Source: an uncultured Gammaproteobacteria bacterium
GTDB taxonomy: Bacteria > Pseudomonadota > Gammaproteobacteria > UBA6429 > Thiohalophilaceae
Assembly (NCBI GenBank): GCA_913064945.1
Contig: CAJYAN010000020.1
Span: 1 to 32,304 of the forward strand
Length of the DNA: 32,304 nt
Direction: 5' to 3'
Under the pieces are notes generated by a model. The model worked only from the letters and a program-made list of their open reading frames with translations, had not been told where the DNA came from and ran no database searches. Positions 10,896 to 32,304 of the stretch are shown here, one piece after another. Both the position numbers and the translations under genes were made by a program. Each line of letters begins with the position of its first letter. The first letter of the stretch is position 1.

Positions 10896-11084
10896 ATGTA
10901 CATAAATCTGGAATGGAACTTGCTGGTTAATATCACCTTACTGGAAAACTCCAGAGCGGAAAAATTTTTCCCGTTGGCTTTTAAGGCGAGCGATACTGAA
11001 CGACTGCCACTAAGTATCCTGCTCTTGTCTCGCTCACGGGATAGCTTACATCAGCTAATAACACCTCTAAAGGCAGCAGCATGA
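10896..11084 (+). CDS. Possible small leader ORF overlapping the amidoligase operon start
   Basis: A 62-codon frame whose TGA overlaps the ATG of the transglutaminase-DUF2126 gene in an ATGA arrangement typical of translational coupling. The product is hydrophobic/basic and resembles no family I know. It has no clear Shine-Dalgarno before its ATG, and its third-position GC is unremarkable, so it may be chance. It is listed because a short peptide next to ATP-grasp and alpha-E genes would be of interest. Confidence 0.2.
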   Translation: MYINLEWNLLVNITLLENSRAEKFFPLAFKASDTERLPLSILLLSRSRDSLHQLITPLKAAA

Positions 11085-14000: not shown

Positions 14001-14374
14001 GACGTCATATCATTGCCTGCAATGGACAGGCACTGCCATTACGTAATACGGGTACGCGAAGTGAATATGTGGCGGGCGTGCGTTATAAGGCCTGGAATCC
14101 AGTCTCAGGTCTGCATCCGACCTTACCCATTAACTCACCACTGGTCTTTGATGTTATTGATCGCTGGTCGAATCGATCACTGGGCGGCTGCACTTACTAT
14201 GTCGCCCATCCAGGCGGGCGTAATCCAGACACCTTTCCCGTTAATGCCTACGAGGCCGAGGCACGTCGGCTGGCACGCTTTACATCGATGGGACATACGG
14301 GCGGGAAGTTTCGCGTCAAGCTTAAACACCCACACCCTGATCATCCCTTTACACTTGATTTAAGAACTCGTTAG
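11081..14374 (+). CDS. Transglutaminase-like/DUF2126 protein
   Basis: A 1097-residue protein, first gene of the Anbu-type cluster. Residues 1-90 are the bacterial transglutaminase N-terminal domain (HHKTVYQFDRLVSLSPHQIR). Residues about 165-250 are the transglutaminase core with catalytic Cys180 (KGSCRDTAW), His229 (LHAWAEVF) and Asp245 (GLDPTSG). From about 320 to the end is DUF2126, with MGGEPTFVSIDD, HTGTGGGNHVTLGG and EFRGFEMPPHP. Comparative genomics has linked DUF2126 to the glutamine-synthetase-like amidoligase fold; I rely on memory for that. Lacking a signal peptide, it should be cytoplasmic. It probably makes or cleaves amide (isopeptide) bonds on a substrate not yet known. It is followed after 38 bases by the ATP-grasp gene. 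Confidence 0.92.
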   Translation: MTIRVGIHHKTVYQFDRLVSLSPHQIRLRPAPHARTPIHQYSIKVEPEEHYINWQQDPFGNFVGRYVFNEKTRRLVIEVDIVVDMVTINPFDFFVEESATEFPFQYDPQLNKELTPYFERSESGPLLMEWLKKVSTKKKRIEDFLVDLNLQLSQDIGYGIRMEPGVQSCEETLTLAKGSCRDTAWLLVQILRHLGLAARFVSGYLIQLTADVKSLDGPSGPEKDFTDLHAWAEVFIPGAGWIGLDPTSGLFAGEGHIPLACTPDPVSAAPVTGATDKCDVEFEFENTVTRIHEDPRVTKPYSDEQWQRVMALGDHVEADLIVNDVRLTMGGEPTFVSIDDMDSPEWNIAALGSHKRERAEVIFRRLWKKFADGGVLHHGQGKWYPGEPLPRWALSCYWREDALPVWQTPELIADPLLKGAHSAEEAKAFSTRLAHHIGISPEYIVPGYEDVLYYLWKEGNLPDNLDVLNNKLANKIDRQRLRRVFEQGLDQVVGYTLPIAWEPVTQQWLSSTWRFQRDHMFLIPGDSPMGFRLPLDSLRWEKDADRHQHIDADPFAERELLPGSVSDRYTRFEASMNNGDPRIEQGLADDEQREGLFFVRTAMCIEPRDGHLHIFLPPIAQLNHWLELIGHIETTAKELNLPIILEGYEAPHDPRLKRFSVTPDPGVIEVNVHPTHNWKELVTNTEILYDEARQSRLGTEKFMLDGRHTGTGGGNHVTLGGASPAESPMLRKPELLSSLIRYWQNHPSLSYLFSGMFIGPTSQAPRVDEARDSSLYELEIALQQIPKGEITSPWMIDRIMRNLLIDMTGNTHRAEFCIDKLYNPNSTTGRLGIVEFRGFEMPPHPRMAMVQNLLLRTLVARFWQTPYEQKLVHWGTELHDRFMLPHYVERDMADVVADLRRWGYPMEREWFDPFTEFRFPHYGRINIDDIELELRFAIEPWNVLGEEVSTQGTSRYVDSSVERLQVKVRGMTDGRHIIACNGQALPLRNTGTRSEYVAGVRYKAWNPVSGLHPTLPINSPLVFDVIDRWSNRSLGGCTYYVAHPGGRNPDTFPVNAYEAEARRLARFTSMGHTGGKFRVKLKHPHPDHPFTLDLRTR

Positions 14375-14412
14375 AAAACTGATAACCAAAATTTGGCATA
14401 CAGGTAAAATTT

Positions 14413-15867
14413 ATGGCGCTTGATCTAACTCAATATGACCCTGGTCGCTTTTATGATGAATCCATTTCGAGTAAAAACCGTGCGCGCAGCTCCTGCAAGG
14501 AACTTATCAAACGCCTACGCAAAATGGATGAGGATGACCTTGCCGCCCGGCAAACCGCCGCCGACCTGGCCATTAAAGAAATGGGGATCTCGTTTCGCAT
14601 CTATACCAAAAAAGAAGGCACCATCGACCGTAACTGGCCTTTTGATATTGTGCCACGCATTATTCTAAAATCGGAATGGGACACCATTGAAGCCGGCCTT
14701 ATTCAACGCGTCAAAGCCCTGAATCTCTTCATTGACGACCTCTATCACGAGCAAAAAATTATTAAGGACGGCGTCTTCCCGGCAGAGGTCCTGGCGGACT
14801 CAAAAAACTTCCGCCCGCAATGTGTCGGCGTATCACCGCCAGGGGGTATCTGGGCACATATCTGTGGTTCAGACCTGGTACGCGATGTCGACGGGACAGT
14901 CTATGTACTGGAAGATAATCTGCGCGTACCCTCCGGCGTCTCCTATATGCTCGAGAATCGGGAGGTCACCAAGCGGGTCTTTCCTGAGCTGTTTGAGGCC
15001 TACGCCCCGCTCCCTGTCGACGACTATCCAACACAGCTAAATGACATGCTGTGTTCTATCTCACCCAGGCGAGTCAAACGACCGGAAGTGGTTGTCCTCA
15101 CACCCGGCATCTATAACTCCGCCTATTTTGAACACGCCTACCTGGCCCATCAAATGGGCGCGGAGCTGGTCGAGGGCCGGGATTTATTTGTCGACAAGGA
15201 TGAATGCGTTTATATGCGTACCGTCGCCGGGCCACAACGAGTGGATGTTATCTATCGAAGGATCGACGATGAATTCATCGACCCGGAGGCCTTTCTGGAG
15301 GACTCTACCCTGGGTGTACCCGGCCTGATGCGTGCCTGGAAGGCGGGCAACGTCGGCCTCGCCAATGCCCCCGGCGCCGGTGTTGCCGACGACAAGGTCG
15401 TCTATGCCTTTGTCCCGGAGATTATTCGTTACTATCTTGATGAAGAACCCGGCATTCCCAATGTGCCGACCTTTCGTTGTATGTACAAGGATGAACGCGA
15501 CTACGTACTGGCGAATCTCGATACGTTAGTGGTCAAACCGGCAAATGAATCCGGTGGTTATGGCATGCTGATTGGGCCAAATTCGACTGAAGCCGAACGC
15601 ACCACTTTTGCCAGACTGATTAAGCGCAGCCCCCGTAACTACATCGCCCAGCCAACACTCGGTATCTCAACCGTGCCCACCATCATCGGCAATCACCTGG
15701 AACCTCGCCATGTGGATTTACGACCCTTCATCCTCAGCGGCAAACACACCACCGTCACAACCGGTGGCCTGACGCGAGTGGCGCTACGCAAAGGATCCCT
15801 GGTGGTTAATTCATCACAGGGTGGCGGCTCGAAAGACACCTGGATTGTTCCGGACGCGGGGGTATAA
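14413..15867 (+). CDS. Circularly permuted ATP-grasp type 2 protein
   Basis: A 484-residue protein of the CP_ATPgrasp_2 family (formerly DUF404/DUF407). Recognisable segments are LFIDDLYHEQKIIKDG, QCVGVSPPGGIWAHICGSDLVRD, VLEDNLRVPSGVSYMLENR, DVIYRRIDDEFIDP, LVVKPANESGGYGMLIGP and HVDLRPFILSG. The last two carry the nucleotide-binding Lys/Gly-rich loop and metal-binding residues expected of ATP-grasp carboxylate-amine ligases. No substrate is established; peptide-bond formation is inferred from the fold. An AGG lies about ten bases before the ATG. The stop is two bases before the alpha-E gene, so the two are translationally close and likely act together. Confidence 0.93.
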   Translation: MALDLTQYDPGRFYDESISSKNRARSSCKELIKRLRKMDEDDLAARQTAADLAIKEMGISFRIYTKKEGTIDRNWPFDIVPRIILKSEWDTIEAGLIQRVKALNLFIDDLYHEQKIIKDGVFPAEVLADSKNFRPQCVGVSPPGGIWAHICGSDLVRDVDGTVYVLEDNLRVPSGVSYMLENREVTKRVFPELFEAYAPLPVDDYPTQLNDMLCSISPRRVKRPEVVVLTPGIYNSAYFEHAYLAHQMGAELVEGRDLFVDKDECVYMRTVAGPQRVDVIYRRIDDEFIDPEAFLEDSTLGVPGLMRAWKAGNVGLANAPGAGVADDKVVYAFVPEIIRYYLDEEPGIPNVPTFRCMYKDERDYVLANLDTLVVKPANESGGYGMLIGPNSTEAERTTFARLIKRSPRNYIAQPTLGISTVPTIIGNHLEPRHVDLRPFILSGKHTTVTTGGLTRVALRKGSLVVNSSQGGGSKDTWIVPDAGV

Positions 15868-15869
15868 GC

Positions 15870-16811
15870 ATGTTATCGCGTGTTGCAGAAGCTATTTACT
15901 GGTTTGGTCGTTACCTGGAACGTGCCGAGAATACTGCACGACTCATTCGCGTCAATTCTCACCTGATGCTGGATACACCCAAAGGAATCTCACTCGGCTG
16001 GGAACCGCTAATCTCCATCACCGGCCTGGGTAAAAATTTTGATGATTTCTATACCGAGGCCACCGAGCGAAACGTCGTTAAATTTCTCATCGGCGACCTT
16101 AACAATCCCAGTTCGATCCTGAATTCGCTGGCGATGGCGCGTGAAAACTGCCGCACCGTGCGCGACATTATCCCGCGTACTGCCTGGCAAAATCTGAATA
16201 AACTCTATCTCTTCGCCAAAGAGAGTGTCAGCAGCGGCTTAACTAAAAAAGGCCGTGACGAATATCTTGATGGCATCATTGCCAGCTCACAACAGCTCAA
16301 TGGCCTGCTCTATTCTGTCATGTATCAGGATGAGGCCTGGCTATTCCTGCGTATTGGTAGAAATATTGAACGCGCGGAAATGACCACGCGTATCCTGGAT
16401 GTGCGCTCATCTGACCTGTTAACGGATGAAGAGGAACTCTTTGAATCCCGCAGCCTGGAAGGTGTGCAGTGGATCAGTGTTTTGAAATCACTCTCGGCTT
16501 ATTCCATCTATCGGCGTACGGTACAGGTGCGTGTTAGCCGGACGCCGGTACTCAATTTTCTGTTTCATGATACCCACTTCCCGCGTGCCATCACCCACTG
16601 TCTCAACTCGGTTGAAGAGAGTCTGGGAAATCTACCGAGAAATAACATTCCATTAAAGTCGTTACGACTACTGGTACAGAAGATTAATGCGAGGAAAATG
16701 GACCACCTGGAACAGGAGGCCCTGCACAAGTTTATTGATGAAATCCAGTCCAGTATTCGGCGCTTCCACCTCGCCATTGAGAAGCAATATTTTTTGCTTC
16801 CCCCTGACTAG
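15870..16811 (+). CDS. Alpha-E domain protein
   Basis: A 313-residue all-helical protein of the alpha-E family (formerly DUF403). The N-terminus MLSRVAEAIYWFGRYLERAEN is the family signature. Further matches are SILNSLAMARENCRTVRDII, WLFLRIGRNIERAEMTTRILD and a C-terminal helix bundle. It has no catalytic motif I can point to. It always accompanies ATP-grasp type 2 proteins and is thought to be a partner or scaffold. Its start is two bases after the ATP-grasp stop with a G-rich ribosome site (GGGGG) inside the upstream gene. Confidence 0.93.
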   Translation: MLSRVAEAIYWFGRYLERAENTARLIRVNSHLMLDTPKGISLGWEPLISITGLGKNFDDFYTEATERNVVKFLIGDLNNPSSILNSLAMARENCRTVRDIIPRTAWQNLNKLYLFAKESVSSGLTKKGRDEYLDGIIASSQQLNGLLYSVMYQDEAWLFLRIGRNIERAEMTTRILDVRSSDLLTDEEELFESRSLEGVQWISVLKSLSAYSIYRRTVQVRVSRTPVLNFLFHDTHFPRAITHCLNSVEESLGNLPRNNIPLKSLRLLVQKINARKMDHLEQEALHKFIDEIQSSIRRFHLAIEKQYFLLPPD

Positions 16812-16927
16812 GATAATTTTTTATAAGTCTTTTCAATATCTTAGATTGTCAGCGTTGATGGGGGTTTCAAGGCCTATGAATATGGCCCATACTACACGTT
16901 CCTTTCTATAACCTTAAAGATACACAT

Positions 16928-17752
16928 ATGACTTACTGCGTCGGACTCAGTCTGGATCAAGGCCTGGTATTCGCCTCTGACTCGCGGACAAATGCGGGGG
17001 TGGACTACGTGACCACCTACAGTAAAATGCACCTCTTTACTCCCGCACCGGATCGCCTCTTTGTGATCCTGTCCGCAGGCAATCTCGCCACCACTCAGGA
17101 AGTGATTAATCATATTCAGCGCGATATCGATTATCCAACCGGCGCGCCAAGCCTGACCAACGTAAAGTACCTGTTTGAGGCAGCGGAATACGTCGGCAAG
17201 ATCAGTCAGCAGGTTCAACAGGAACATAGCAGCGCCTTCGCCAAGTCAGGTGTCAGCGGTGCAACCACCCTGTTACTTGGAGGCCAGATTTCCGGACAGC
17301 CTCATGGACTTATTATGATTTACCCACAGGGCAATTACATTAGCTCCTCACCGCAGACACCGTATTTACAAATTGGTGAAAGCAAGTACGGCAAGCCCGC
17401 GCTGGATCGGATTGCCCATCCAGGGCTAACACTGGATGAGGGTGCCTGCCTGTCGCTGGTCTCACTGGACGCCACCACGCGATCAAACATTACCGTTGGC
17501 CCGCCTTTCGAAATTGCAACCTATCAAAAGGATAGCATGCAACTCAATTGCCGCTGCAGCTTTGACGAGTCAGACCCATACCTTATTAAGTTACGTGAGT
17601 CCTGGAACTCGGGCATTGTTAGCGTTTTTCAAAATCTGCCCCCTTTTGAAAACAATGTACCTCCGCAACTGTCGACTAATTTCCCGACCAACCAGAATCA
17701 GGCGCAGGCACAGGCAGAACTCATGATGAAACCCCAGCGTCAGATTACCTGA
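16928..17752 (+). CDS. Proteasome-like peptidase Anbu
   Basis: A 274-residue Ntn-hydrolase of the Anbu (ancestral beta subunit) family, related to HslV and proteasome beta subunits. After Met removal the nucleophile is Thr2 (MTYCVGLSLDQG). The accompanying catalytic residues are Asp18 (FASDSR) and Lys33 (YSKMHLF), the same spacing as in HslV. No propeptide is present. The C-terminal 40 residues are Pro/Asn/Gln-rich and probably flexible. Published structures of relatives show ring-like assemblies without a known ATPase partner; physiological substrates are unknown. It follows the alpha-E gene after 116 bases and may have its own promoter. A Shine-Dalgarno is weak. Confidence 0.93.
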   Translation: MTYCVGLSLDQGLVFASDSRTNAGVDYVTTYSKMHLFTPAPDRLFVILSAGNLATTQEVINHIQRDIDYPTGAPSLTNVKYLFEAAEYVGKISQQVQQEHSSAFAKSGVSGATTLLLGGQISGQPHGLIMIYPQGNYISSSPQTPYLQIGESKYGKPALDRIAHPGLTLDEGACLSLVSLDATTRSNITVGPPFEIATYQKDSMQLNCRCSFDESDPYLIKLRESWNSGIVSVFQNLPPFENNVPPQLSTNFPTNQNQAQAQAELMMKPQRQIT

Positions 17753-17820
17753 ACTGAACTATTCTCGGATTGTCCATGAACACGGACTTCGATTCTCCGC
17801 TACGTAACATGTACGCACAG

Positions 17821-17846
17821 GGTCCTCTGTCTCAATCTGGAGGACC
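17821..17846. other. Hairpin at the convergent Anbu/transglutaminase ends
   Basis: GGTCCTC (17821-17827) pairs with GAGGACC (17840-17846) over a 12-base loop. The right arm lies within the last codons of the minus-strand transglutaminase. No T-run follows on either strand, so a role in termination is uncertain. Confidence 0.35.
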
Positions 17847-18629
17847 ATTCAGTAACTCTACCCGAACATCCATACTACTAAAAATCGCTGGCGGGCCAAA
17901 CTGGTGATATATCGCCACATCAGCGGCATCACGGCCATAGGCCACGGCAATTCGCCCGCCGCGAAGCACAAGGTCCGTGGAATCGAAGGTGTACCAGCGG
18001 TCACCCACATAGGCTTCGAACCAGGCGTGCATGTCCATAGGCTCAAGCCCGTAGAGGAAACCGACAACCAGTCGTGCAGGAATACTGATACTGCGACATA
18101 GCGCGATGCCGAGATGGGCATGGTCACGACACACACCCTCACGCTGTGTATTTACCTCGGCAGCAGACAATGGATATTGGCTGGAACCCGGTGTATAGCG
18201 TACCGAATCACGAATCCAGTCACTGATTCTATTTACCTGATCGTAACCAAGCTGCACTCCCTCGACGATGTCTCTTGCCAGATCACCGAACCTGTCAGAC
18301 TCGCAATATCGGCTTGGGCGTAAATATGACAGGACGGTATCCGGCAGGTTTTGAATATCCACAAACAATGCCCCCGGGGCCTTGTCCATCATATCCGCCG
18401 TCTTTAGTACGGCGGAGGTATGTATCGAAAAATCGCCTACCGGCGCGGTCAGCCGCTGACAAAGATTGCCGAAGATATCGGTAAATTCCACCACCTGAAC
18501 ACTTGGTGATAGTGTATAGGTTTCCCGAGCTACCCACTGCTGCATACCGCTGCGTGGACGGAGCATGAGAATCAACGGTGTCGAGTCGCCCATTTCGAAT
18601 TCGAGATTACAGGTGGTTTGTATCCACAT
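17832..18629 (-). CDS. Transglutaminase-family protein (second, stand-alone)
   Basis: A 265-residue cytoplasmic transglutaminase-like protein. The start at 18629 ([13 protein letters not shown]) is preferred over the upstream ATG at 18683 because GAGGA lies about nine bases before it and the beta-sandwich N-terminal domain begins there. The catalytic triad is intact: Cys167 ([12 protein letters not shown]), His201 ([10 protein letters not shown]), Asp216 (TFDSTD). This type is a frequent member of Anbu/ATP-grasp/alpha-E clusters and could hydrolyse or form isopeptide bonds. Here it faces the cluster on the opposite strand, with its end 79 bases from the Anbu stop, so it is transcribed separately. 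Confidence 0.9.
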
Positions 18630-19105
18630 ACTGACTATTCCTCTTCTTTCTATGCTGACTCCGGTGGCACGACTATGAATCACAGCGATCTACATTCTAT
18701 ATACAGCAAATTCAGTCTGACATGGAAATTAACCTCCAGCTGAACACTGACAGAACATACTAAACCTGCGTTTTAATAATATCATTCATCTCTGTAACAA
18801 ATTATTTTGATTACCTTTAGCAGTCATAATTTTCCTGTTAAGCAGACATTATAAAAACCATTCTGTTCACCTATAAATAATGTCAGTGCCTCTACAAAGA
18901 TAACGACCCACCACCCTGACAATGTACGTTTCTCCTTTACTACAAGTATTAACGAATCTTTCATCGCTTGCCCCCTCTCAAGAAAGAGGCGCATAATTGG
19001 TTAAAGCCTGAAATTACCATAAAGCGACACCACGCTTTATAATTGCACCAAAGCAGTTCATTTATGTAGTCACCAGGGGCTGGTTTTATTTGCGCGAGAG
19101 AATAT
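18630..19105. other. AT-rich intergenic region before the VOC-like gene
   Basis: About 475 bases of AT-rich DNA between divergent genes. It must hold both promoters, but I cannot place a -35/-10 pair with confidence. No reading frame or structured RNA is evident. Confidence 0.45.
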
Positions 19106-21507: not shown

Positions 21508-21802
21508 GCGTCTGTATTTTATGCCGGGGTGACGAGCCTGCACACCAGAGCGAGGCCGGAATTGAAACTCAGCCCTGACCAGTGACAGAATCGCACCCTG
21601 CCTCGCCGCCTAAAACCCTCGCACCGGTCGTCCGTTCAGAGATGTCACTCCCTGCCCCTGCAGGTGCAGGTGCACTGACATAGTGAGACGCGGCTTCATT
21701 AGGCCACCGCTGGGATATCATTAATAAAACGATATAAAACATAATGTTATTTCGTTACTATTGGCTATCAGCGTTGTTCCCGCAAGCGATAGGACAGGTA
21801 AC

Positions 21803-22765
21803 ATGCATAGCCAAGCCGAATTTCTCACCCTGCGCGACCATATTCAGTCAGTCATCGTGGGCCAGTCCGAGCTCATTGACCGCATCCTGATTGCCGTCCT
21901 GACCGGTGGGCACCTGTTGCTCGAGGGACCGCCCGGCCTCGCCAAGACTACGGCGATAAAAAGCCTTGCCAGTGGCATCCATGCGGGGTTTCAGCGCATC
22001 CAGTTCACCCCGGACCTGATGCCCGCCGACCTCACCGGCAGCGACCAGTTTGACCCCCAGGCCAACCAGTTTAATTTCGTCGCCGGGCCGCTGTTTCACG
22101 AGATTATCCTTGCCGATGAAATTAACCGCGCCCCACCCAAGGTGCAGTCAGCGTTACTGGAGGCCATGGAGGAGCATCAGGTCACGGTCGGAAGCCAGAC
22201 CCATATCCTGCCAGACCTGTTCATTGTCATGGCGACCCAGAACCCACTGGAACAGGCGGGCACTTACCCATTACCCGAGGCACAGCTAGACCGGTTCCTG
22301 CTTCATGTACTGATTGACTATCCAACGGAGAAGGAAGAGCTGGAGATCCTCATGCGGGATCGTCAGCTGCACTTTGGTGAGGATCTACAAAAAGTCGACT
22401 CCCGCCTGCAACCGGAGACGGTCTTAAAGGCGCGCCGTGAGGTAGCGGAAATCCACATCGAATCCGTGCTGAATGAATACATCGTCAGGCTCGTCAATGC
22501 CACCCGCCAACCACAACTGTGGATACCGGCCTGGCAGGACTTTGTCGACTTCGGTGCCTCACCCCGCGCCACCCTCGCCCTGTCACGCGCCGCCTGCGCC
22601 AACGCCTATTTACAAGGCCGTCACTATGTCATTCCCGATGATGTCATTGTCCTGGCACCCGATGTCCTGCGTCACCGTCTACGCCCCAGCTTTGCAGCCC
22701 GTGCCGAACAGGTCGATGCGAATACCATCATTAATAAACTCATCGAGATCATCCCGATTCCCTGA
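21803..22765 (+). CDS. MoxR-family AAA+ ATPase
   Basis: A 320-residue cytoplasmic AAA+ ATPase, first gene of a six-gene MoxR/Bat operon. The start at 21803 (MHSQAEFLTL) follows AGGT by five bases; an in-frame TTG at 21761 has no ribosome site. Walker A is GPPGLAKT (42-49), Walker B is IILADEINRAPPKVQ (Asp105-Glu106), sensor 1 is ATQNP, and YPLPEAQLDRF is the typical MoxR segment. A lid domain closes the protein. MoxR ATPases act as chaperones with VWA proteins, for example in cofactor or metal insertion. The 295-base region upstream of the start shows AT-rich promoter-like DNA near 21720-21745. Confidence 0.94.
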   Translation: MHSQAEFLTLRDHIQSVIVGQSELIDRILIAVLTGGHLLLEGPPGLAKTTAIKSLASGIHAGFQRIQFTPDLMPADLTGSDQFDPQANQFNFVAGPLFHEIILADEINRAPPKVQSALLEAMEEHQVTVGSQTHILPDLFIVMATQNPLEQAGTYPLPEAQLDRFLLHVLIDYPTEKEELEILMRDRQLHFGEDLQKVDSRLQPETVLKARREVAEIHIESVLNEYIVRLVNATRQPQLWIPAWQDFVDFGASPRATLALSRAACANAYLQGRHYVIPDDVIVLAPDVLRHRLRPSFAARAEQVDANTIINKLIEIIPIP

Positions 22766-22770
22766 CTGTC

Positions 22771-23742
22771 GTGATCCGTCAACTCCACCAACTCTTGCAT
22801 CGGACCCGACATCGCTGGCGTGGTCCCGCTATCCAGCAGCCGCTACTCAACAGGCGCGAGCTACAGGACCTGCAACACTTCGCCCTCACCTGCTTTAACT
22901 CACCGCTTACCGCGCGCCGTGATGTACAGCAACAACTGCTGGGGGATCGGCTGTCACGCTTTTCGGGTAGTGGTTACGAATTTGCCGAAAATCGTCTGTT
23001 TCAAACCGGAGACGATGCCCGCTTTATTAACTGGCGTCTCTTTGCCCGTAGCGGCCAGTTATACCGCAAGGTTTTCCATGAAGAGCGCCGCCCACCATTA
23101 TGGCTAGTCCTCGATCGTCGCGGGCCGATGCGCTTTGGCACCCGCACGCGATTAAAAATCACCGCCGCCGTACGCCAGGCACTGGTATATCTCTATCAGG
23201 CACAGCAACAACAGCTCGCGGTCGGTGCCGTATTGCTCGACCAGCCGGAACAATGGTTTGACGTCAGCGCCTCCGGCACCAGCCAGCAGACGCTGATTGA
23301 TCATATGATTGCTGCCTGTCCCCCGCCCACCTCAGGAGATTTTTCCTGCGACATGGACACGATCGTGCGCCAGCTTCAAAACCGCTTACTACCCGGTAGC
23401 ATTGTCGTTCTGCTTAGTGACTTTCACGACTTGCAGGAACGCCACCTTGCCCACTTACACCATCTCTCACAACAACACTCCGTGATGGCGGTACAGGTAC
23501 TCGATGATATTGAACTACAGCTACCAAGCCATGGCCGCTATCGTCTTGCAAACGATGCCCATATTAATATGGTGCTGGACTGTAACGACCACGACAGCAG
23601 GCAAAAAATCGAACAGCAGCTCCGCGGGCATCAACAACAAGTAGAGCAGTGGTTACTTGCTGCCGGTCTTGAATACCACTGTCTGCTAACCAGCGATGAG
23701 CCCTTTCAGTTGTTACCGGAGCCTGCCGATGCCATTACCTGA
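22771..23742 (+). CDS. DUF58 domain protein
   Basis: A 323-residue DUF58 protein, standard partner of MoxR. The family core is GYEFAENRLFQTGDDARFINWRLFARSG with FHEERRPPLWLVLD, followed by a VWA-like Rossmann region (IVVLLSDFHDL). The first metal-site strand reads LDRRGPM rather than DxSxS, so a full MIDAS is missing, as is common in DUF58. It starts at GTG 22771, five bases after the moxR stop, with no clear ribosome site, which fits translational coupling. It overlaps the next gene by 14 bases. It is glutamine- and histidine-rich like its neighbours. Confidence 0.9.
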   Translation: MIRQLHQLLHRTRHRWRGPAIQQPLLNRRELQDLQHFALTCFNSPLTARRDVQQQLLGDRLSRFSGSGYEFAENRLFQTGDDARFINWRLFARSGQLYRKVFHEERRPPLWLVLDRRGPMRFGTRTRLKITAAVRQALVYLYQAQQQQLAVGAVLLDQPEQWFDVSASGTSQQTLIDHMIAACPPPTSGDFSCDMDTIVRQLQNRLLPGSIVVLLSDFHDLQERHLAHLHHLSQQHSVMAVQVLDDIELQLPSHGRYRLANDAHINMVLDCNDHDSRQKIEQQLRGHQQQVEQWLLAAGLEYHCLLTSDEPFQLLPEPADAIT

Positions 23743-24139
23743 ACAACCATCAGGTTCCTGGGTGGATATTCAGGCACTACCCGTCCCCGCCGAGGCTATC
23801 CATTCCTCGCTGATCCTGACTATCATCGGCGTGGTCATCCTGCTTGTGGTGCTTGGCTATTACCTCTGGCGACGCCCAAAATTTGTCGCACATCGCCAAA
23901 TTCGCCACCTGCAAAAGCATCCGAATACACGTCAGCAGCTTTTTTTACTGAATCAGGCCCTGCAGCAGGCTTTTCAGGTTCATAATATTGAACATATTAG
24001 CTTCGAAGGTCAGCTACAGCGCGACTGGCAGGCATTTTGTCACGAACTGGTTCACCAGCGCTTTGCTGCCCCAACACCAAGCAGGACTGACGTCAGTCGA
24101 CTGCACCTGCAGGCGTATGACTGGTTAAGAAGGGTCTGA
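23729..24139 (+). CDS. DUF4381 domain protein
   Basis: A 136-residue single-pass membrane protein. The start at 23729 (MPLPEQPSGSW) is chosen because GGAG lies about eight bases upstream. The frame extends further back inside the DUF58 gene but without support. A periplasmic stub of about 26 residues precedes one transmembrane helix (27-46, ending YYLWRRP), and a basic cytoplasmic domain follows with LNQALQQAF and FCHELVHQRF segments. This is the DUF4381 pattern found between DUF58 and the VWA genes in gammaproteobacterial Bat operons. The function is unknown. Confidence 0.82.
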   Translation: MPLPEQPSGSWVDIQALPVPAEAIHSSLILTIIGVVILLVVLGYYLWRRPKFVAHRQIRHLQKHPNTRQQLFLLNQALQQAFQVHNIEHISFEGQLQRDWQAFCHELVHQRFAAPTPSRTDVSRLHLQAYDWLRRV

Positions 24140-24144
24140 GTCCA

Positions 24145-25194
24145 GTGCATAAACTTATCAGTGACTTGCACTTTGACCATCCCGCTGCCCTGTGGCTACT
24201 CCCACTCAGTCTGCTTGTACTGACACTCTGCCTGCCCTGGCTTCGACGCTCTCTCTACCGATGGTCCTCCCTGCTCGAATTACAGCAACATCACTACCGT
24301 CATCCACAGCTCCAGCTGCTCAATACCATGCCCGCCACAACACCTGCATCGGCCTATCCTGGACTACTGAAACACTGGTTTGTCTACGCCGTCCTGTTTG
24401 TTCTATTACATCTCACCCTGGCACAACCCTATCGCCTTGGCGAGCGGCTACCCGCGCCTCCTCAATATCGTGATATTGTTTTCCTCGTCGATACTTCCGT
24501 AAGCATGATACTGCGCGATTACCTGGTCGCAGGCCAGCGTATCGACCGCATGCGTATGGTCAAGTCTGTGCTACACCACTTTATAAATCAGCTTACCGGC
24601 AGTCGGCTTAGCCTGGTGGCCTTCTCTGAAAAGACCTATACGCTGGTACCACTGACAACGGATCACGCCTTACTTCAATACCAGTTGCAACGCCTAGAAC
24701 CGGCCAGTCTTACCGGGCGCCGCACCGATCCCGGCAAGGCACTTTTATCTACCCTCAACGAATTATCGTCACGCCTGCACGCCGGTGAAAAACCGGTATT
24801 GGTGATGCTCACCGACGCCAATCGACCCGTCAGGGACATTGACCCTCGCATCGCGGCTGCACTGGTCAAACAACAAGGCCTGCGTCTGTACACCATTGCC
24901 ATCGGTGCCGGTAGCCAGGCAGGTAAAGAAAAGTCGAACAGCAACCTTATTTACCAACCCGCTAACATCAAGCTGCTGGCCAGCATGGCACTCGCTGGTG
25001 GCGGCCAGGCTTTCCGGGCCGATAGTCCGGCCAGCCTGCAGCAGGCCTTACAAACGATCCAGGCAGGTGCGCAGCAGCCAGTTCAGGCTGAACCCGTCTT
25101 TATTCGTCTGCCTTTATATTACTGGCCACTGGGCCTGGCCCTGCTCTGGGTGCTGCTGTGGCAAACCCTGCCATTGCTGAGGCCGGGCAAATGA
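24145..25194 (+). CDS. BatA-like VWA membrane protein
   Basis: A 349-residue protein with hydrophobic helices at about 14-31 and 77-93, a von Willebrand factor A domain at about 110-300, and a C-terminal helix at 326-343. The metal-ion-dependent adhesion site is intact: VDTSVSM (Asp116, Ser118, Ser120), a Thr in the TGRRTDPG region, and MLTDANRP. The order and topology match BatA of the Bacteroides aerotolerance set. It starts at GTG five bases after the DUF4381 stop and overlaps the next gene by four bases (ATGA). It is probably a membrane-bound partner of the MoxR ATPase. Confidence 0.9.
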   Translation: MHKLISDLHFDHPAALWLLPLSLLVLTLCLPWLRRSLYRWSSLLELQQHHYRHPQLQLLNTMPATTPASAYPGLLKHWFVYAVLFVLLHLTLAQPYRLGERLPAPPQYRDIVFLVDTSVSMILRDYLVAGQRIDRMRMVKSVLHHFINQLTGSRLSLVAFSEKTYTLVPLTTDHALLQYQLQRLEPASLTGRRTDPGKALLSTLNELSSRLHAGEKPVLVMLTDANRPVRDIDPRIAAALVKQQGLRLYTIAIGAGSQAGKEKSNSNLIYQPANIKLLASMALAGGGQAFRADSPASLQQALQTIQAGAQQPVQAEPVFIRLPLYYWPLGLALLWVLLWQTLPLLRPGK

Positions 25195-27020
25195 TGCTGG
25201 GCCACGCATTACACTGGCGCGAGCCCCTGTGGCTACTCCTTGCCCTGTATCCGCTACTGATGCTGGCCACGACCCAGGTCGTGTCCCGCTGGCAGCGCGA
25301 GCACTATGCCGACACCGCCTTACTCCCCTGGGCGCTTTCACGCCACACAAAACAACGCCGCTATTTACGCTGGCGTCAGCTGGCGCATTTTATTGCCTGG
25401 GGCTGTTTTGCGATGGCCATGGCCGGGCCGCGCTTTGCGGAAAAAATCTATCTTCACGACCATCGCCACGATGCTGAAGTGATGATGGTCATCGACCTGT
25501 CACAGTCCATGAGCGCCAGGGATCTCCTGCCCAATCGCCTGCAACGCGCCCGCCTGGAGTTACTCGACTTCCTGCAGACGAATAATCCCCTGCGAATTGG
25601 TATCACTGTGTTTGCCGCGCGACCACACCTGCTCAGCCCGCTGACCTACGATAAATCTGTCATACGCCATTATCTCACTGCCTTGAAGCCGGCACTGCTA
25701 CCAACGGCCGGTTCAAATATTAACGCCGCACTTTTATTTGCCGCGACACAGTTTACGCAAACACCAGCCACATCCCGCCGCCTGTTGCTGATCAGCGATG
25801 GTGATTCTGCCGGGCTCATTCCACCAGCGGTGCTACAACATACCGCCCAACAATTCAGACAACAGGGCATTCGTATCTATGCACTCGGTGTTGGCACCCC
25901 CGCCGGGCAGGCCGTCGTCGCGCACCTTGGCTCCGAGACGCGCCATGTACAAACCGCCGTAACAACCCTGCAGCGCTCGACACTACAGCAATATGCCCGT
26001 TTGACGAATGGTGGCTATGCTGATATCAGTAGCGACAATAGTGATTGGCAGCAACTCTACGATCAGGGTATGGCCGCGGTAGACGACACTACATCAAAAC
26101 AACAGGCCAGTGGCCAAAAAATTATCTGGCAGGATGTATATTCCTTCCCTCTGGTCTTTGGCTTGATCTTTTTTATTGCCAGTCTGCTCAACATCGACAG
26201 GTCGAAATCAAATAAGAAGGTCATCGCACCGCTTATTCTCATTCTGAGTCTTGGATTTATTATTGATACCTATCACCCGGTAGAGGCATCGACAAATACC
26301 TATGCACAGGCCTATCAACTCTATCAACAAGGCAAATACAAACAGGCTCATCAACTCTTCGCGCAACTCTCAGGCTATTTGGCCCGTCTGGGTGAGGCCA
26401 GCTCTCTCTATCAACAAAAAGATTATGCCACTGCGCGTGACGTCTACATCCAGGCGGTACTTGTCGCTGCTGACGATCGGCAGCGGGCAACGGCTCTGTT
26501 CAATCTCGCCAATAGCTATTACCAACTCAGGGAATTTCTTCAGGCGCAACAACTGTATACCGATGTATTACGTTATCAGGCTCAGTTTCCGGCGGCGAAC
26601 ATCAACAGGCTTCATGCCCAGCAACAGCAACGTTTAAAAGAAGCCAAGCAGGCACTTACCTATCGCCCCGGTAATGGTCCGCGCAATGCGCGGGCGGCGG
26701 ATAAGCTGGATGTCTCAAATTCACGTGTCTCAATGGGTCACTCCACTCCAAATAAACAATCGGCACTTCCCGCTGTGAAGACTGATGCCGTCTCCAGCTT
26801 ACCCCTGCTTGAGCAGACCGAGCTGGCCAGTCAGCAGGTTGAGAATGATGCAGATACCGACTGGACCTATCGACTTAATACACTATCCGCCGTTCGCTCC
26901 AGACAACTCAGCCTGCACGCAGAGACGAGTGACGTCTGGCAGCGCCTCTTCGAACAGGAAGAGGGCTTTCCCGCGCCGGTCTTACATCCCCACGTTCTGC
27001 CGGGTGTGTCGCCATGGTAA
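25191..27020 (+). CDS. BatB-BatC fusion: VWA and TPR protein
   Basis: A 609-residue fusion. The start at 25191 (MMLGHALHWREPLW) overlaps the previous stop as ATGA and follows GAGG by eight bases. Two N-terminal helices (about 12-27 and 63-79) precede a VWA domain with an intact MIDAS, MVIDLSQSM (Asp102, Ser104, Ser106), and LLLISDGDSAG. Hydrophobic segments lie near 318-336 and 343-361. Then come tetratricopeptide-type repeats (YAQAYQLYQQGKYKQAHQLF, RATALFNLANSYYQL) to about 490 and a Gln/Ser-rich tail. BatB and BatC are separate genes in Bacteroides; the joined form is common in proteobacteria. The TPR part would lie in the periplasm. Confidence 0.9.
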   Translation: MMLGHALHWREPLWLLLALYPLLMLATTQVVSRWQREHYADTALLPWALSRHTKQRRYLRWRQLAHFIAWGCFAMAMAGPRFAEKIYLHDHRHDAEVMMVIDLSQSMSARDLLPNRLQRARLELLDFLQTNNPLRIGITVFAARPHLLSPLTYDKSVIRHYLTALKPALLPTAGSNINAALLFAATQFTQTPATSRRLLLISDGDSAGLIPPAVLQHTAQQFRQQGIRIYALGVGTPAGQAVVAHLGSETRHVQTAVTTLQRSTLQQYARLTNGGYADISSDNSDWQQLYDQGMAAVDDTTSKQQASGQKIIWQDVYSFPLVFGLIFFIASLLNIDRSKSNKKVIAPLILILSLGFIIDTYHPVEASTNTYAQAYQLYQQGKYKQAHQLFAQLSGYLARLGEASSLYQQKDYATARDVYIQAVLVAADDRQRATALFNLANSYYQLREFLQAQQLYTDVLRYQAQFPAANINRLHAQQQQRLKEAKQALTYRPGNGPRNARAADKLDVSNSRVSMGHSTPNKQSALPAVKTDAVSSLPLLEQTELASQQVENDADTDWTYRLNTLSAVRSRQLSLHAETSDVWQRLFEQEEGFPAPVLHPHVLPGVSPW

Positions 27021-28441
27021 GGCGCGGGAAATATTTACTGTGGCTCAGCCTGCTGATAGGGCTCTCGGCGAATTCGACAGCCGCCACGTTTAACGTCCTG
27101 CTTGTCAAATCACAGGTCGAGCTTGGAAAGTACGTCTATCTTATGCTCAGCAGCGATCAGACCAGTCCCTCGTTACACTCGGTCGACTTGCGATCTCTAC
27201 AGGGGAATTTCTTTGTCGATAGCACCGCCGATATCGTCACACGACAACAGGGTCAGCACTGGAAACTACGGCTCTATCCCCGGCAGACAGGTCATCTCCG
27301 TGTCGCCCCATTAACGTTTGCGGGGATTCGTAGCCACTACCAGTCGCTTGATGTCGACCCTGCCATCGATTCTGTCACTGGACAGCAGCTTACGATTGAG
27401 ACCTCCATATCAGAGCGGACTGCCTGGCTTCGGCAACAGGTGTTACTCAAACTGAGCGTCTTATCCAGGGATCAACACGTCGTACTGGAGACCTCCAGCC
27501 CTCCGCTGCCTACAGGCGAGCTACACCGTTTTGAAACAGTAACCCAGGCCACAAAGACAGTGGATTTGCGGCGTCACACGATTGGCTGGGCCTATTTTCC
27601 AACACGCATCGGCAAGCAGACACTGCAGCTGCCACCGATATACTACAAACGCGACGGTGTCATCACCCATCGATTTTATTTTCCGATTCAGCACTTACAG
27701 GTAATGCCTCTACCGCTCTACGTGCCTGCTAATTTTGTGGTCGGAAGGCTCTCGCTTCAGGTCATGCCATACACACATTTTTTACTTAACCATCGGTTGC
27801 ATACCATCAATATTCGCCTCCATGCGGCAGGGGTCCTTCAGCAAGGACTACCTCAGCTTGAAAACTATTTACACAGTACGTCCGCCCTGCACTTATATCC
27901 TGTCAGCACGAATTTGCAACAAACCTCCACGAACACAGGTCTCAACAGTCAGGTCGATATACAGCTGCCTATACGCAGTGATAGTAATGGGTTGTCTCGG
28001 CTGGATGATATTGAGCTGCAATACTTTGAGCCCGGCAGTGGCAAGCTGCAAACGCTCCGTTATCACTGGTCGCCAATATTTTTTATCAGTCCCTGGTTAC
28101 TGGTACTGGGCGGTCTGTTAATCTTACCGCCCCTGGTCTATGGGATTATGAAGCTTCTCTTCATTATAAACGGCTACTGGCGACGCTATCGTGACTGGCA
28201 TTTGGCCCGACAGCAATTACTCGCCGCCACAACACCACAGGAAGTAAGGGTCGCCGTTTTACAGATGTGTCGTGCAGAATTTGGTATCGGCAATAAGACG
28301 CTAAAACAATATTCCGTGTATACCGGGATCGATTGTGAACCGCTAAATCGTGCCCTCTACGGGCGATCCGGGATTGATATTCAATTTCTCAAGCAGGTCT
28401 ATTTGCAGCTACGCCTGAAAAAATTAAAATTTATTATTTAA
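27014..28441 (+). CDS. BatD-like protein
   Basis: A 475-residue membrane-anchored protein. A Sec signal peptide (MVRRGKYLLWLSLLIGLSANS) leads into repeated immunoglobulin-like periplasmic beta domains; matches to BatD include VELGKYVYLML, RLYPRQTGHLRVAPLTFAG, RTAWLRQQVLLKLSV and IGWAYFPTRIGKQTLQLPP. One transmembrane helix lies at about 350-375, with a cytoplasmic tail of about 95 residues. It overlaps the BatB-BatC gene by seven bases and ends the operon. BatD is thought to bring periplasmic partners to the VWA proteins; experiments are limited. Confidence 0.85.
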   Translation: MVRRGKYLLWLSLLIGLSANSTAATFNVLLVKSQVELGKYVYLMLSSDQTSPSLHSVDLRSLQGNFFVDSTADIVTRQQGQHWKLRLYPRQTGHLRVAPLTFAGIRSHYQSLDVDPAIDSVTGQQLTIETSISERTAWLRQQVLLKLSVLSRDQHVVLETSSPPLPTGELHRFETVTQATKTVDLRRHTIGWAYFPTRIGKQTLQLPPIYYKRDGVITHRFYFPIQHLQVMPLPLYVPANFVVGRLSLQVMPYTHFLLNHRLHTINIRLHAAGVLQQGLPQLENYLHSTSALHLYPVSTNLQQTSTNTGLNSQVDIQLPIRSDSNGLSRLDDIELQYFEPGSGKLQTLRYHWSPIFFISPWLLVLGGLLILPPLVYGIMKLLFIINGYWRRYRDWHLARQQLLAATTPQEVRVAVLQMCRAEFGIGNKTLKQYSVYTGIDCEPLNRALYGRSGIDIQFLKQVYLQLRLKKLKFII

Positions 28442-28524: not shown

Positions 28525-29601
28525 TCAGCCCGCTTCGCGTATTTCAAACGTTTTATTCTCCTCTAACCTGGAAGTTAAATCACCGTTAAAATCCAGCCAC
28601 TCATGACGCGCATAATTATACAGTTTGCAATCGCTCAAAGTCCTTAACATATCCCTGGCTCTGAATTGGTATATGTGCATTTTGTTATTCGAACCTTCTG
28701 TGAGAATTTTCTGTGCCTGCTTAAGTCTATATAAAGGTACTCTAGGGTTGAAATGATGGATTGGATGAAGATAAATATTGTGTGTAATTAAATTATACCA
28801 AAAAGGGTATTTTACGTGTGTCGCTATCTCCTCTGCTGAGTGTACGCTACTCTTCCACTCACTGAGAGACTCATACCATTTTATGGTCTGATGTGTGTGG
28901 TGCAGGTAAATTGTCATACCAACGGCATAGTTCCACACAATGAAGGGGACTAAAAATGCCCAGAATAAGCCACTCACTATCGACGTATGATGAAAATATG
29001 CGGTGGCGGAAATAATGCTGGCAAAGCCAACGAAATAGACAGCTAACAATGCTACATCCTTCCAGGCACGTTGGTGATAATTTTTGGGAATATGTTTTTT
29101 TGGGTATATTTTTTCTTTAAACCAGCGTTCGACAATATAATACGGACCAAAGCCCAGTGGGCTTCGATATATGCGCTCAACCGCCTGCCGCCAGCGGGGC
29201 ATCGCACTGTATTCATCCCAGCTCTTGGGTGACCAGGAATTCAGATTTTTGACATTCGGATAACCATGATGAATTTGGTTGTGGATATACAACCATAGAG
29301 AGTAATTATGCAGGCTGGGTAAAAAGCATAACCGTGCAATGAAGGCATTCAGTTTCTTATTAGGTACATAGGCCTGGTGTGCGGCATCGTGTGCAATGAC
29401 AAATAGCTGAGAAATCATGAAACCCGCCAGACCTGCACAGGCGGCTTTAATGAGCAGATCATCGCTCAGCAAGATTATGGCCACTGCACCAACATAGATC
29501 ACTATATCGACACTTAATATTAACAACGCGAGCGGTAGATTTGCCCTGGCCAGGCCAGAAATCTTTGACTTTGGTGAACCGAGCGTTGAGTATTTTTTCA
29601 T
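28525..29601 (-). CDS. Membrane fatty acid desaturase
   Basis: A 358-residue integral membrane di-iron desaturase. The three histidine boxes are present: HDAAH (71-75), HNQIHH (107-112) and HPIHH (279-283), with an additional HHTHQ at 234-238. Hydrophobic helices lie at about 22-46, 50-70, 184-202 and 206-232. It probably introduces a cis double bond into an acyl chain of a membrane lipid or acyl carrier; regiospecificity cannot be read from sequence, and carotenoid or sphingolipid hydroxylase/desaturase relatives are possible. AGGGA lies five bases before the ATG. It is divergent from an RpfC-like kinase with overlapping promoters, and is more AT-rich than genes to its left. Confidence 0.88.
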   Translation of the reverse strand: MKKYSTLGSPKSKISGLARANLPLALLILSVDIVIYVGAVAIILLSDDLLIKAACAGLAGFMISQLFVIAHDAAHQAYVPNKKLNAFIARLCFLPSLHNYSLWLYIHNQIHHGYPNVKNLNSWSPKSWDEYSAMPRWRQAVERIYRSPLGFGPYYIVERWFKEKIYPKKHIPKNYHQRAWKDVALLAVYFVGFASIISATAYFHHTSIVSGLFWAFLVPFIVWNYAVGMTIYLHHTHQTIKWYESLSEWKSSVHSAEEIATHVKYPFWYNLITHNIYLHPIHHFNPRVPLYRLKQAQKILTEGSNNKMHIYQFRARDMLRTLSDCKLYNYARHEWLDFNGDLTSRLEENKTFEIREAG

Positions 29602-29636
29602 AGCATCCCTGACCAGCGTAAATTTATTATTGCAAA

Positions 29637-29664
29637 ATTCTAACGTTATCTCGCCATTTGCCGA
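29637..29664 (-). promoter_or_regulatory. Probable promoter of the desaturase gene
   Basis: On the minus strand TAGAAT (plus-strand 29637-29642; five of six bases to consensus) lies 16 bases downstream of TCGGCA (29659-29664; four of six). The -35 overlaps that of the divergent kinase promoter. Confidence 0.45.
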
Positions 29665-29685
29665 TATGGATCAGCCCCTTATGAT
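29658..29685 (+). promoter_or_regulatory. Probable promoter of the RpfC-like kinase gene
   Basis: TTGCCG (29658-29663; four of six) and TATGAT (29680-29685; five of six) are 16 bases apart. Transcription would begin near 29692, upstream of both candidate start codons of the kinase. Confidence 0.5.
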
Positions 29686-29804
29686 TATTTATAGCTAATA
29701 ACCCAATAAGTGTGTACATGATAGATGAATTTGCGGCATCGTTAAAGCATTGCAAGTATCTGATAAATAAACATATTTCGTTTTCCTTAAAGGCCTATGT
29801 AGAC

Positions 29805-32304
29805 ATGTCGTCACTACGTCGCATCAAAACCGAGAAGGAACTCGAGCAGATACTTATTCGCCTGGTTATCGGCTTTGGCGTGCTCACCTATATGGTCTAT
29901 CTGGACTTCCATTTTGTGGCCAATTTCCTCAAGGGTGGATTTCGCACCATCCCTGTCGGTCTTGATTTAAGCCTTTTCTATTTCATTTCGCTATCTATTT
30001 TATTGTGCGCCCTCTGGTTCAGGCTCCTACAGCCCGCGGCAATTCGCTTTGCCTCACTCGTCATCGATATGAGTGTGCTCTCCTTTGCGATGGCACTAAT
30101 TACAGAATATGTCATCCCCATGTTCTTCCTCTATTATTGGGTTATCACGGGACATGCCTTTCGCTTTGGTCTACGTGATTTATTAATCTCTACGCTATTG
30201 GCCATCATCGGCTTCAGCACCGCTGTAATATTTGGAGAGTACTGGCACTCACACTACGACTACGCTGCCTGGCTTCTGCTCTCACTTGTATTACTTCCCG
30301 GCTACATCGGACTCTTTATTCGGCGCGAACATCAATATCTAGTTCAGCTTGAGTCTGAAAAAGTCAAAGCCAATGCGGCAAATCAGGCCAAGTCTGATTT
30401 TCTGGCGAACGTTACCCATGAACTTCGTACACCGCTTAATGGTATTGTTGCTGTCGGTGATCTCCTGCTAAAAAGCGATCTGAAAGGCAAGCAGACGGAG
30501 TATGCCGGTGTCGTTGTGCGATCGGCGAACATTCTACGCGCACTTATCAACAATATTCTTGATTATTCCAAGCTCGAAAATAAGGTTGTCGAAGCCGAGA
30601 ATATTCCGTTTGATCTTCACTCCGTTATCAACACAGTTAAATCCATTCTGGAACCTGTTGCCATTGAAAAGGGTATCGAATTTAATGTTAATCTGTACGA
30701 TTCAGTACCAGGCTCTGTTTTAGGTGACCATGTCAAGTTATCACAAATATTGATGAATCTTGGAAATAATGCGATCAAGTTTACTGATATTGGCTATGTA
30801 GGGATTAATATATTTCCAAAAAGTATCGATGAAAATAAGATAACCATACGCTTCGAAATTATTGACACGGGTATCGGTATCAAAAAAGATTCTCTTGATA
30901 CTATATTTGACCGCTTTAAGCAGGAGAATGAAAGCATCACGCGACGATTTGGTGGAACCGGTCTCGGTACAACAATTTCAAAATCGCTGGTTGAGGTGAT
31001 GGCAGGTAAAATTGGTGTCACCTCAGAAGAGGGGGTCGGCAGTCGTTTCTGGTTTGAGATACCGTTTGAAATTGGTGTAATAGAACACAATACAACCATC
31101 AATGCCGTGCACGTTATTATACTTGCAGACAACATGCTTAATGTTCATGACATCCGTACAAAGCTGGAATCATGGCAATATGAAGTCGATACCGTGACCG
31201 ATCTCAAGGATCTTATTAGCGCACAACAATCCTGCCATATCGAGATACCGGGTACTGTCATTGTACACAGCAATTCGTTTACCAATGCCTGCCGTACCAT
31301 CGAGAGACTTAATGAGACAACACGAAAAAATATAAATTTTATCCTGGCAGGGAACAATCTTTCAGGTACAAAATATAACACCGACCATTTTAATAACTTC
31401 CTTGCATTACCTATCAATACACGTGAGTTGTATCATACATTACATTTCAGACACCATGATTATGACTCCGTTGTCACCCCCATAAATGCCATTCGCAAAA
31501 ACAGCGGGGAAGGCAAGCAGGTTTGTTTTAATATTCTCGTCTGCGATGACGAAAAAACGAACCGCTATGTGATGAATGAAATGCTATTAACGCTTGGCCA
31601 TCAAGTCAGTCTCGCCGAGAACGGATACGAGGCCATGGACCTTCTGCAGGAAAAGAAATTTGACCTGGCAATACTTGATATGCAAATGCCTGATATTTCC
31701 GGTCTTGAGGTCGCCGAACTGTATCACTACTCCAGACCAGACGAAAAAGTACCATTAGTTTTAGCAACTGCCAATATGAATCACGAACTACCGGTTAATT
31801 CGCGTGAATTTTTTTCATATTTTCTGGAAAAACCCATCAATTTATCGACGCTTACTACACTCATCAATAAGTTTGTAAGCGATCAACTACCAGCAAATAA
31901 TCCAACCGCACAAAAAAACAGCCAGACATCGATTCCCTTATTTGATCATAATGCCTTCATCGAAGATTTTTATTCAGGATTGAATGACAGTAATTTTGCA
32001 GAGGAATTATTTCAGGTCTTTATCGATAATATCAAGGTAGTCTGGGCTGATATGAAAAATGCAATCTCCGCGCATGAATTTGACAAATTTAAAAAAACGA
32101 TTCATTCAATGCTAGGTATTGCATCCAATGTTAAAGCACTACAACTAACAGCCTTATTACGGGAAATACATCAAATCGACCAGATAGAATTCGCCAATGT
32201 CGACTCTATGGACAATCTTTCAAAAAAACTCCTGGCGTGCTTCAACAGTACAGAGAGAGAGATGCGTCACTGTCTTTTTGATATTAAAAAAAATCATCCA
32301 AAAC
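29805..32304 (+). CDS. RpfC-like hybrid sensor histidine kinase, 3' end missing
   Basis: At least 833 residues, with no stop before the window ends. Five or six hydrophobic helices fill about 16-171. HisKA follows with FLANVTHELRTPLNG (His205), then a HATPase (NNAIKFT, DTGIGI, GGTGLGTTISK) to about 420, a degenerate receiver-like stretch (435-552), and a true receiver (576-690) with Asp581/Asp582, phospho-acceptor Asp625 (LAILDMQMPD) and Lys676 (EKPI). Near the end is an HPt domain with His767 (IHSMLGIASNVKA). The membrane-HK-REC-HPt order and short N-terminus resemble RpfC, sensor of diffusible signal factor (cis-2-unsaturated fatty acids). An in-frame ATG at 29718 would add 29 residues; neither start has a strong ribosome site. 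No rpfF or rpfG is in view. Confidence 0.88.
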   Translation, partial: MSSLRRIKTEKELEQILIRLVIGFGVLTYMVYLDFHFVANFLKGGFRTIPVGLDLSLFYFISLSILLCALWFRLLQPAAIRFASLVIDMSVLSFAMALITEYVIPMFFLYYWVITGHAFRFGLRDLLISTLLAIIGFSTAVIFGEYWHSHYDYAAWLLLSLVLLPGYIGLFIRREHQYLVQLESEKVKANAANQAKSDFLANVTHELRTPLNGIVAVGDLLLKSDLKGKQTEYAGVVVRSANILRALINNILDYSKLENKVVEAENIPFDLHSVINTVKSILEPVAIEKGIEFNVNLYDSVPGSVLGDHVKLSQILMNLGNNAIKFTDIGYVGINIFPKSIDENKITIRFEIIDTGIGIKKDSLDTIFDRFKQENESITRRFGGTGLGTTISKSLVEVMAGKIGVTSEEGVGSRFWFEIPFEIGVIEHNTTINAVHVIILADNMLNVHDIRTKLESWQYEVDTVTDLKDLISAQQSCHIEIPGTVIVHSNSFTNACRTIERLNETTRKNINFILAGNNLSGTKYNTDHFNNFLALPINTRELYHTLHFRHHDYDSVVTPINAIRKNSGEGKQVCFNILVCDDEKTNRYVMNEMLLTLGHQVSLAENGYEAMDLLQEKKFDLAILDMQMPDISGLEVAELYHYSRPDEKVPLVLATANMNHELPVNSREFFSYFLEKPINLSTLTTLINKFVSDQLPANNPTAQKNSQTSIPLFDHNAFIEDFYSGLNDSNFAEELFQVFIDNIKVVWADMKNAISAHEFDKFKKTIHSMLGIASNVKALQLTALLREIHQIDQIEFANVDSMDNLSKKLLACFNSTEREMRHCLFDIKKNHPK

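Follow-up and report, generated by a model that had tools for sequence, protein, structure and literature searches.

The 32,304-nucleotide stretch analyzed here (the window), which comprises the entire contig C20 (CAJYAN010000020.1) of an uncultured gammaproteobacterium from the family Thiohalophilaceae, ends within the gene of a hybrid histidine kinase whose divergently oriented neighbor encodes a membrane fatty acid desaturase. Judged by its sequence, the kinase belongs to the RpfC family and is an RpfC orthologue. On balance, we think it probable that this orthologue senses cis-2-unsaturated fatty acids, that the gene of the corresponding synthase, rpfF, lies in an assembly gap or has been lost, and that the kinase gene stands beside an unrelated desaturase gene. 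This reading builds on homology, domain order, tree position and gene neighborhood, from which we infer the ligand and the signaling partner.

One line of evidence comes from the input region of the kinase. When its sensor portion (residues 1-223) was used to query 58 genomes, its own included, matches were obtained in 38 of them, among these 33 of the 36 other genomes of the family. After its own copy, the best match reached an E-value of 1.8e-22, establishing homology to the input region of rpfF-linked RpfC proteins. The eight best matches fell in G008, G026, G015, G002, G050, G038 and two stretches of one G006 frame, and the open frames holding them measure 859-1037 residues. Identity to the sensors of 17 rpfF-linked kinases, which served as a stand-in for Xanthomonas RpfC in our kinase comparisons, ranges from 17 to 33%. 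The surroundings of 15 sensor matches were retrieved and their open reading frames (ORFs) read. A tree was built from 46 kinases after removal of seven duplicate rows, with the sequences truncated behind the HATPase domain. In it, the window kinase branches among the rpfF-linked RpfC proteins, as the sister of those from G008, G026 and G002 (support 100/99), and two other kinases of G008 and a second kinase of its own genome, on contig C5, are placed elsewhere. The label "rpfF-linked" is enriched by choice among the 18 rows that carry it, because three of them (L185, L186 and L188) were retrieved via their RpfF. Fetched kinase loci lacking a sensor match were excluded from the tree, shorter sensor matches from the family for which no locus had been fetched were not placed, and the deep branches between the RpfC-like rows are not resolved. 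Both the sensor search and the tree show that many RpfC-type input regions of the family belong to shorter kinases outside the rpfF-linked group. The RpfC-like character that the initial annotation had assigned to the kinase thus extends to its sensor.

Two of the kinases retrieved deserve separate mention. The rpfF-linked RpfC of G006 (L052; contig C4 of that genome, 4358-7453; 1031 residues) is matched by the sensor query in two successive stretches, as if its input region had been tandemly duplicated. In this family, the RpfC-type input region often occurs in short kinases; the second kinase of the genome under study (L063; contig C5, 5670-8473), which also has such a region, comprises 561 residues, and its stop codon overlaps a gene for a product with a GGEEF motif.

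The domain architecture of the window kinase conforms to the same assignment. Its gene occupies positions 29712-32304 of the forward strand and encodes at least 864 residues; the frame stays open up to the end of the window, which falls within the final codons of the gene, so that the stop lies past the contig end. An internal ATG at codon 32 (29805) is a possible alternative start. The RpfC-type membrane input region (residues 39-210; 29826-30341) is followed by HisKA (residues 226-290; 30387-30581; 64.3 bits), whose histidine lies within an HELRTPLNG motif, HATPase_c (residues 338-453; 30723-31070; 81.8 bits), a weakly conserved stretch (about residues 460-600; 31089-31511), a response regulator receiver domain (REC; residues 608-718; 31533-31865; 71.3 bits) and HPt (residues 765-821; 32004-32174). 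HisKA, HATPase_c and REC score above their Pfam cut-offs; HPt reaches 16 bits against a cut-off of 24.6, and its histidine aligns with that of relatives. All elements of RpfC are therefore found in one chain, HPt with a score below the Pfam cut-off, and the domain order described in the initial annotation stands except for the stretch between HATPase and REC, which it had not included. This segment is present in 14 of the 17 aligned rpfF-linked kinases, with 12-20% identity to those 14, and may represent a degenerate receiver domain. A model of the input region, based on a 19-row alignment (predicted local distance difference test score, pLDDT, 88), contains six long helices and retrieved no match at E ≤0.001 in a fold search.

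The window kinase thus resembles Xanthomonas RpfC in its domain order and, through its homology to rpfF-linked kinases and its position among them in the tree, in its input region. It differs from it by the additional weakly conserved stretch before REC and by its surroundings, in which rpfF was not seen and rpfG is not located on the sequenced side. Moreover, RpfC is drawn with five membrane helices in an excerpt of PMC5391125, whereas our model of the window kinase shows six long helices as candidate membrane spans. We also considered whether REC had decayed after a loss of RpfF, and rejected this idea. Compared with four other rpfF-linked kinases, the REC of the window kinase is 34-39% identical and those of its three sisters are 39-48% identical; HisKA shows the same difference (51-57% versus 59-73%), so there is nothing special about the divergence of REC.

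The relatives of the kinase indicate where its rpfF would be expected. In all eight other genomes of the family with a kinase frame of at least 850 residues (G002, G006, G008, G015, G019, G026, G027 and G032), rpfF is convergent with the kinase gene, overlapping it by a few bases or lying at most 10 bp away. The RpfF profile NF006452 scored above its cut-off in G006, G038, G048 and G050, the product from G026 matches the structure of Xanthomonas RpfF (3m6m, E 5.6e-54), and in G032, where rpfF is cut by a contig end, the readable part of its product, the last 98 residues, shares 75% identity with that of G019. Seven finds made outside the family, starting from the kinase, are likewise rpfF-linked (G038, G048, G050, L105, L117, L119 and L132); in another (L106), the contig ends before linkage could be read. 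Contig C20, in turn, stops in a dead end at position 32304, approximately the site where rpfF ends in the eight family relatives, so that the expected rpfF site is unsequenced. Its last 180 bases are single-copy, matching only themselves and 17 bases elsewhere. When the terminal 300 bases at all 44 contig ends of the assembly were compared, 37 had 25-mers in common with another end, in most cases the number expected from an overlap of 127 bp, as is usual in assembly graphs. C20 overlaps in this way with the end of C15 through its start, and its own end is among the seven without any overlap. Because the rpfF position falls past the contig end, it cannot be claimed that the desaturase stands there "instead of rpfF", as the initial annotation had put it with no means of telling that the window breaks off at this very site.

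The other six dead ends of this assembly are C1_end, C7_start, C7_end, C8_end, C11_start and C14_end. C7_start holds an apparent transposase fragment, and at C8_end a frame remains open across the entire 6 kb retrieved. As a further observation, a beta-ketoacyl synthase (KAS)-like gene adjoins rpfF in two separate groups (loci L046, L047, L119 and L132) and may provide the signal's acyl substrate.

Several findings weigh against our interpretation. First, rpfF was detected on none of the 22 contigs, and the genome is rated 100% complete. The best score of profile NF006452 was 80 bits, compared with a cut-off of 177, for a 683-residue frame on contig C13, part of which is the sole enoyl-CoA hydratase match in this genome; a tblastn search with ten RpfF proteins (E 1e-3) against both ends of C1-C19, the whole of C21 and C22 and the window likewise found no piece of rpfF and matched only the C13 gene. 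Second, this genome offers no close match to the KAS gene that adjoins rpfF in G008 and G026; the best one (42% identity) sits in what reads as a fab operon, its genes being named by reading. In the remaining family loci, no such KAS gene was observed next to rpfF. Third, the linkage between the two genes is not universal, since two long RpfC-like kinases from outside the family (L057 and L104) have no rpfF in reach, the genome of L057 carrying one elsewhere, and two of five loci retrieved via rpfF lack such a kinase (L187 and L189). Fourth, a search of the genome for HD-GYP domains gave six matches in five frames, and the protein on contig C4 with the REC-HD-GYP build expected of an RpfG candidate is only 41-44% identical to three linked RpfG proteins and sits on a long branch, grouping weakly with the RpfGs of the family in a quick tree (86, Shimodaira-Hasegawa-like approximate likelihood ratio test only).

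A final point against it concerns the residues implicated in the perception of the diffusible signal factor (DSF). In X. campestris, RpfC requires R15, D17, S18, E19 and Q22 for DSF sensing, according to an excerpt of PMC5391125. In a gapless local alignment, the corresponding residues of the window kinase are K, E, K, E and Q, so that it departs from Xanthomonas RpfC at R15 (to K), D17 (to E) and S18 (to K). The same excerpt describes the R15K variant as functional, D17E as lowering function and changes of S18 as lowering it, with the exception of Thr. The rpfF-linked kinases of the family shown in our alignment deviate at D17 and S18 as well, so that the motif decides neither for nor against DSF sensing. 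R-x-D-S-E is kept in the kinases of G207, G162, G048 and L104. The motif glutamine (Q46 in the window kinase) is conserved in nearly all of 19 aligned sensors, and R50, D119 and R151 in all of them. The ligand of the kinase may differ from the DSF of Xanthomonas.

The two fates of rpfF that our interpretation allows are difficult to tell apart. That the gene lies in the assembly gap directly after the kinase gene, forming a normal rpfC-rpfF pair flanked by the desaturase gene on the far side, has in our view only just less than an even chance: it agrees with the arrangement in all eight other family genomes with long RpfC-type kinases and with the dead end of the contig at precisely this spot, but requires that an entire gene of about 830-900 bp be hidden, since neither the window nor the ends of the remaining 21 contigs yielded any piece of it. 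In addition, the surroundings of the kinase gene are rearranged relative to those in G026. In that genome, a BI-1-like gene and a Bat-type operon lie in front of the kinase gene; in the window, this place is taken by the desaturase gene and a Bat-type operon that faces the other way, and the BI-1-like gene is found on contig C2. The Bat-type operon of G026 (L047) is thus also 5' of rpfC but inverted, with its MoxR end nearest. These comparisons hinted at a rearrangement and left the whereabouts of rpfF unsettled. That rpfF has been lost, leaving an orphan RpfC that detects the signals of neighbors, is a possibility to which we give a chance somewhat short of even. Its absence from every contig of a genome rated as complete and the lack of a close relative of the rpfF-adjoining KAS gene of G008 and G026 on any contig argue for it, whereas the fact that the expected spot is unsequenced argues against it. 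There are precedents: Leptospirillum ferriphilum ZJ lost its RpfF (excerpt of PMC9040811), and PA1396 of Pseudomonas aeruginosa is an RpfC-like sensor involved in interspecies sensing (excerpt of PMC4504480). As far as these excerpts go, PA1396 is, like the window kinase, an RpfC-like sensor viewed independently of any cognate synthase; in contrast to PA1396, however, the window kinase has an HPt domain, and its orphan status is only possible. Taken together, gap and loss appear about equally plausible, as the missing KAS gene tilts somewhat toward loss and the consistent linkage in the eight relatives toward a gap.

In either case, the multi-helix input region would sense a cis-2-unsaturated fatty acid, that is, a DSF-type signal, and thereby induce autophosphorylation of the kinase. 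The phosphate would then pass from His to Asp to His within the same chain, via REC and HPt, and on to a second protein, a response regulator that is probably of the RpfG-like HD-GYP kind and whose activity would alter cyclic di-GMP levels, as reported for the relay from RpfC to RpfG in Xanthomonas (excerpt of PMC4504480). With rpfF lost, the signals perceived would be those of other bacteria. The initial annotation had suggested looking for rpfF and rpfG elsewhere in the genome. The search revealed no complete rpf locus; for rpfG, it provided only the candidate on C4.

The desaturase gene occupies positions 28525-29601 of the reverse strand, and its product (358 residues) clearly belongs to the membrane fatty acid desaturase family PF00487, as indicated by its Pfam score (84.7 bits, cut-off 29.7) and its three histidine boxes, HDAAH (residues 71-75; 29377-29391), HNQIHH (residues 107-112; 29266-29283) and HPIHH (residues 279-283; 28753-28767). 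H71, H75, H107, H111, H112, H279, H282 and H283 are invariant among nine aligned sequences, as are the histidines of H235-T-H237. An AlphaFold2 model based on the nine-row alignment (pLDDT 83) has its top fold match in the PDB in a fatty acid desaturase domain protein (8xks chain K, E 7e-10) and a weak one in FtAlkB (E 0.0095). The description of a divergent pair of a three-histidine-box desaturase and a hybrid kinase in the initial annotation was hence accurate. Two further desaturase genes are found in the genome, on contigs C3 and C7, and a MoxR-DUF58-Bat-type operon (21761-28441; named by reading the ORFs) stops 83 bp short of the desaturase gene.

The pairing of the two genes is not conserved in the genomes searched. 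At E 1e-10, the remaining 36 family genomes, several of them incomplete, gave no homologue of the desaturase, and two of 21 more distant genomes gave one. In larger samples, which had two genomes in common, homologues with 29-36% identity were present in 8 of 368 other genomes of the class (1e-30) and 11 of 397 other genomes of the phylum (1e-40). The closest ones come from two families of the class that we took for Burkholderiales because of a match to a named plasmid, that of Paraburkholderia sprentiae. Eighteen desaturase neighborhoods of about 5 to 18 kb, the plasmid record included, contain nothing that matches the RpfC-type sensor, RpfF or KAS; a single neighborhood (L213, G590) has a generic histidine kinase, 23% identical over its catalytic part, at a distance of about 1.4 kb. 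Conversely, none of the 51 loci of 3-23 kb retrieved for kinases or rpf genes, a good part of which contain generic kinases, held a desaturase homologue at 1e-4. Among publications combining RpfC and desaturase, none concerned such a gene pair, as far as titles and the openings of abstracts reveal; "desaturase" in the excerpt of PMC4504480 denotes the activity of RpfF. The proposal that the desaturase acts as a partner in place of rpfF is therefore not borne out. Of the three outcomes that the initial annotation had named as refuting its idea, a pair not conserved in relatives is what we observed; a sensor unlike that of RpfC and a complete rpf locus elsewhere are not. Its adjacency to rpfC, seen in one genome only, gives no evidence of a shared pathway, and the desaturase most likely modifies membrane lipids independently of the kinase. 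It would represent a separate membrane-lipid desaturase with its nearest relatives in apparent Burkholderiales, whose enzymes (32-36% identity), unlike that of the window, have no adjoining RpfC-like kinase.

Alternatively, the order of acyl chains or an unsaturated acyl product could be what the kinase responds to, with the divergent desaturase gene under its control, in a convergent counterpart of des-desKR of Bacillus. As in B. subtilis, where DesK-DesR controls the lipid desaturase Des, the gene of a membrane kinase adjoins that of a lipid desaturase, and the divergent arrangement, with an intergenic region of 110 bp (29602-29711; 203 bp with a kinase start at 29805), and the lack of rpfF on the contigs would fit such a module. 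Nevertheless, the pair recurs in no other genome searched, the closest relatives of the kinase are rpfF-linked, and no DNA-binding regulator is encoded by the window ORFs beside the pair, which cover only one side of it, the region after the kinase gene lying past the contig end. Promoter-like matches between 28400 and 29900 were no more frequent than expected (5 versus a mean of 4.4 in shuffled sequences). Moreover, the window kinase is not of the type of DesK, which is not known to carry REC, HPt or an RpfC-type input region. The case for a DesK-like circuit thus comes down to adjacency, and we regard it as unlikely. The further notion that an RpfC deprived of its synthase was rewired to a newly acquired desaturase, turning from a quorum sensor into a membrane-lipid sensor that detects acyl chains modified by this enzyme and controls the divergent gene, appears highly improbable.

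A shared foreign origin of the two genes was also considered based on their base composition and set aside, since the signal is too weak for a conclusion: their GC contents of 0.426 (desaturase) and 0.412 (kinase) are equaled or undercut by 13.9% and 11.0%, respectively, of 173 ORFs in the retrieved stretches of the same genome. At some distance from the pair, positions 11081-18683 of the window harbor a cluster of genes for a transglutaminase/DUF2126 protein, a circularly permuted ATP-grasp protein, a proteasome-like peptidase and a second transglutaminase, an arrangement similar to that around the Anbu peptidase.

Collectively, our findings illustrate that a window at the edge of a contig can suggest the replacement of a partner gene. 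Should rpfF truly be gone, this organism would possess another RpfC that may sense a signal without making it. As RpfC systems without RpfF are already in print, the kinase described here would then appear, from its sequence, to be a further case of a known type.

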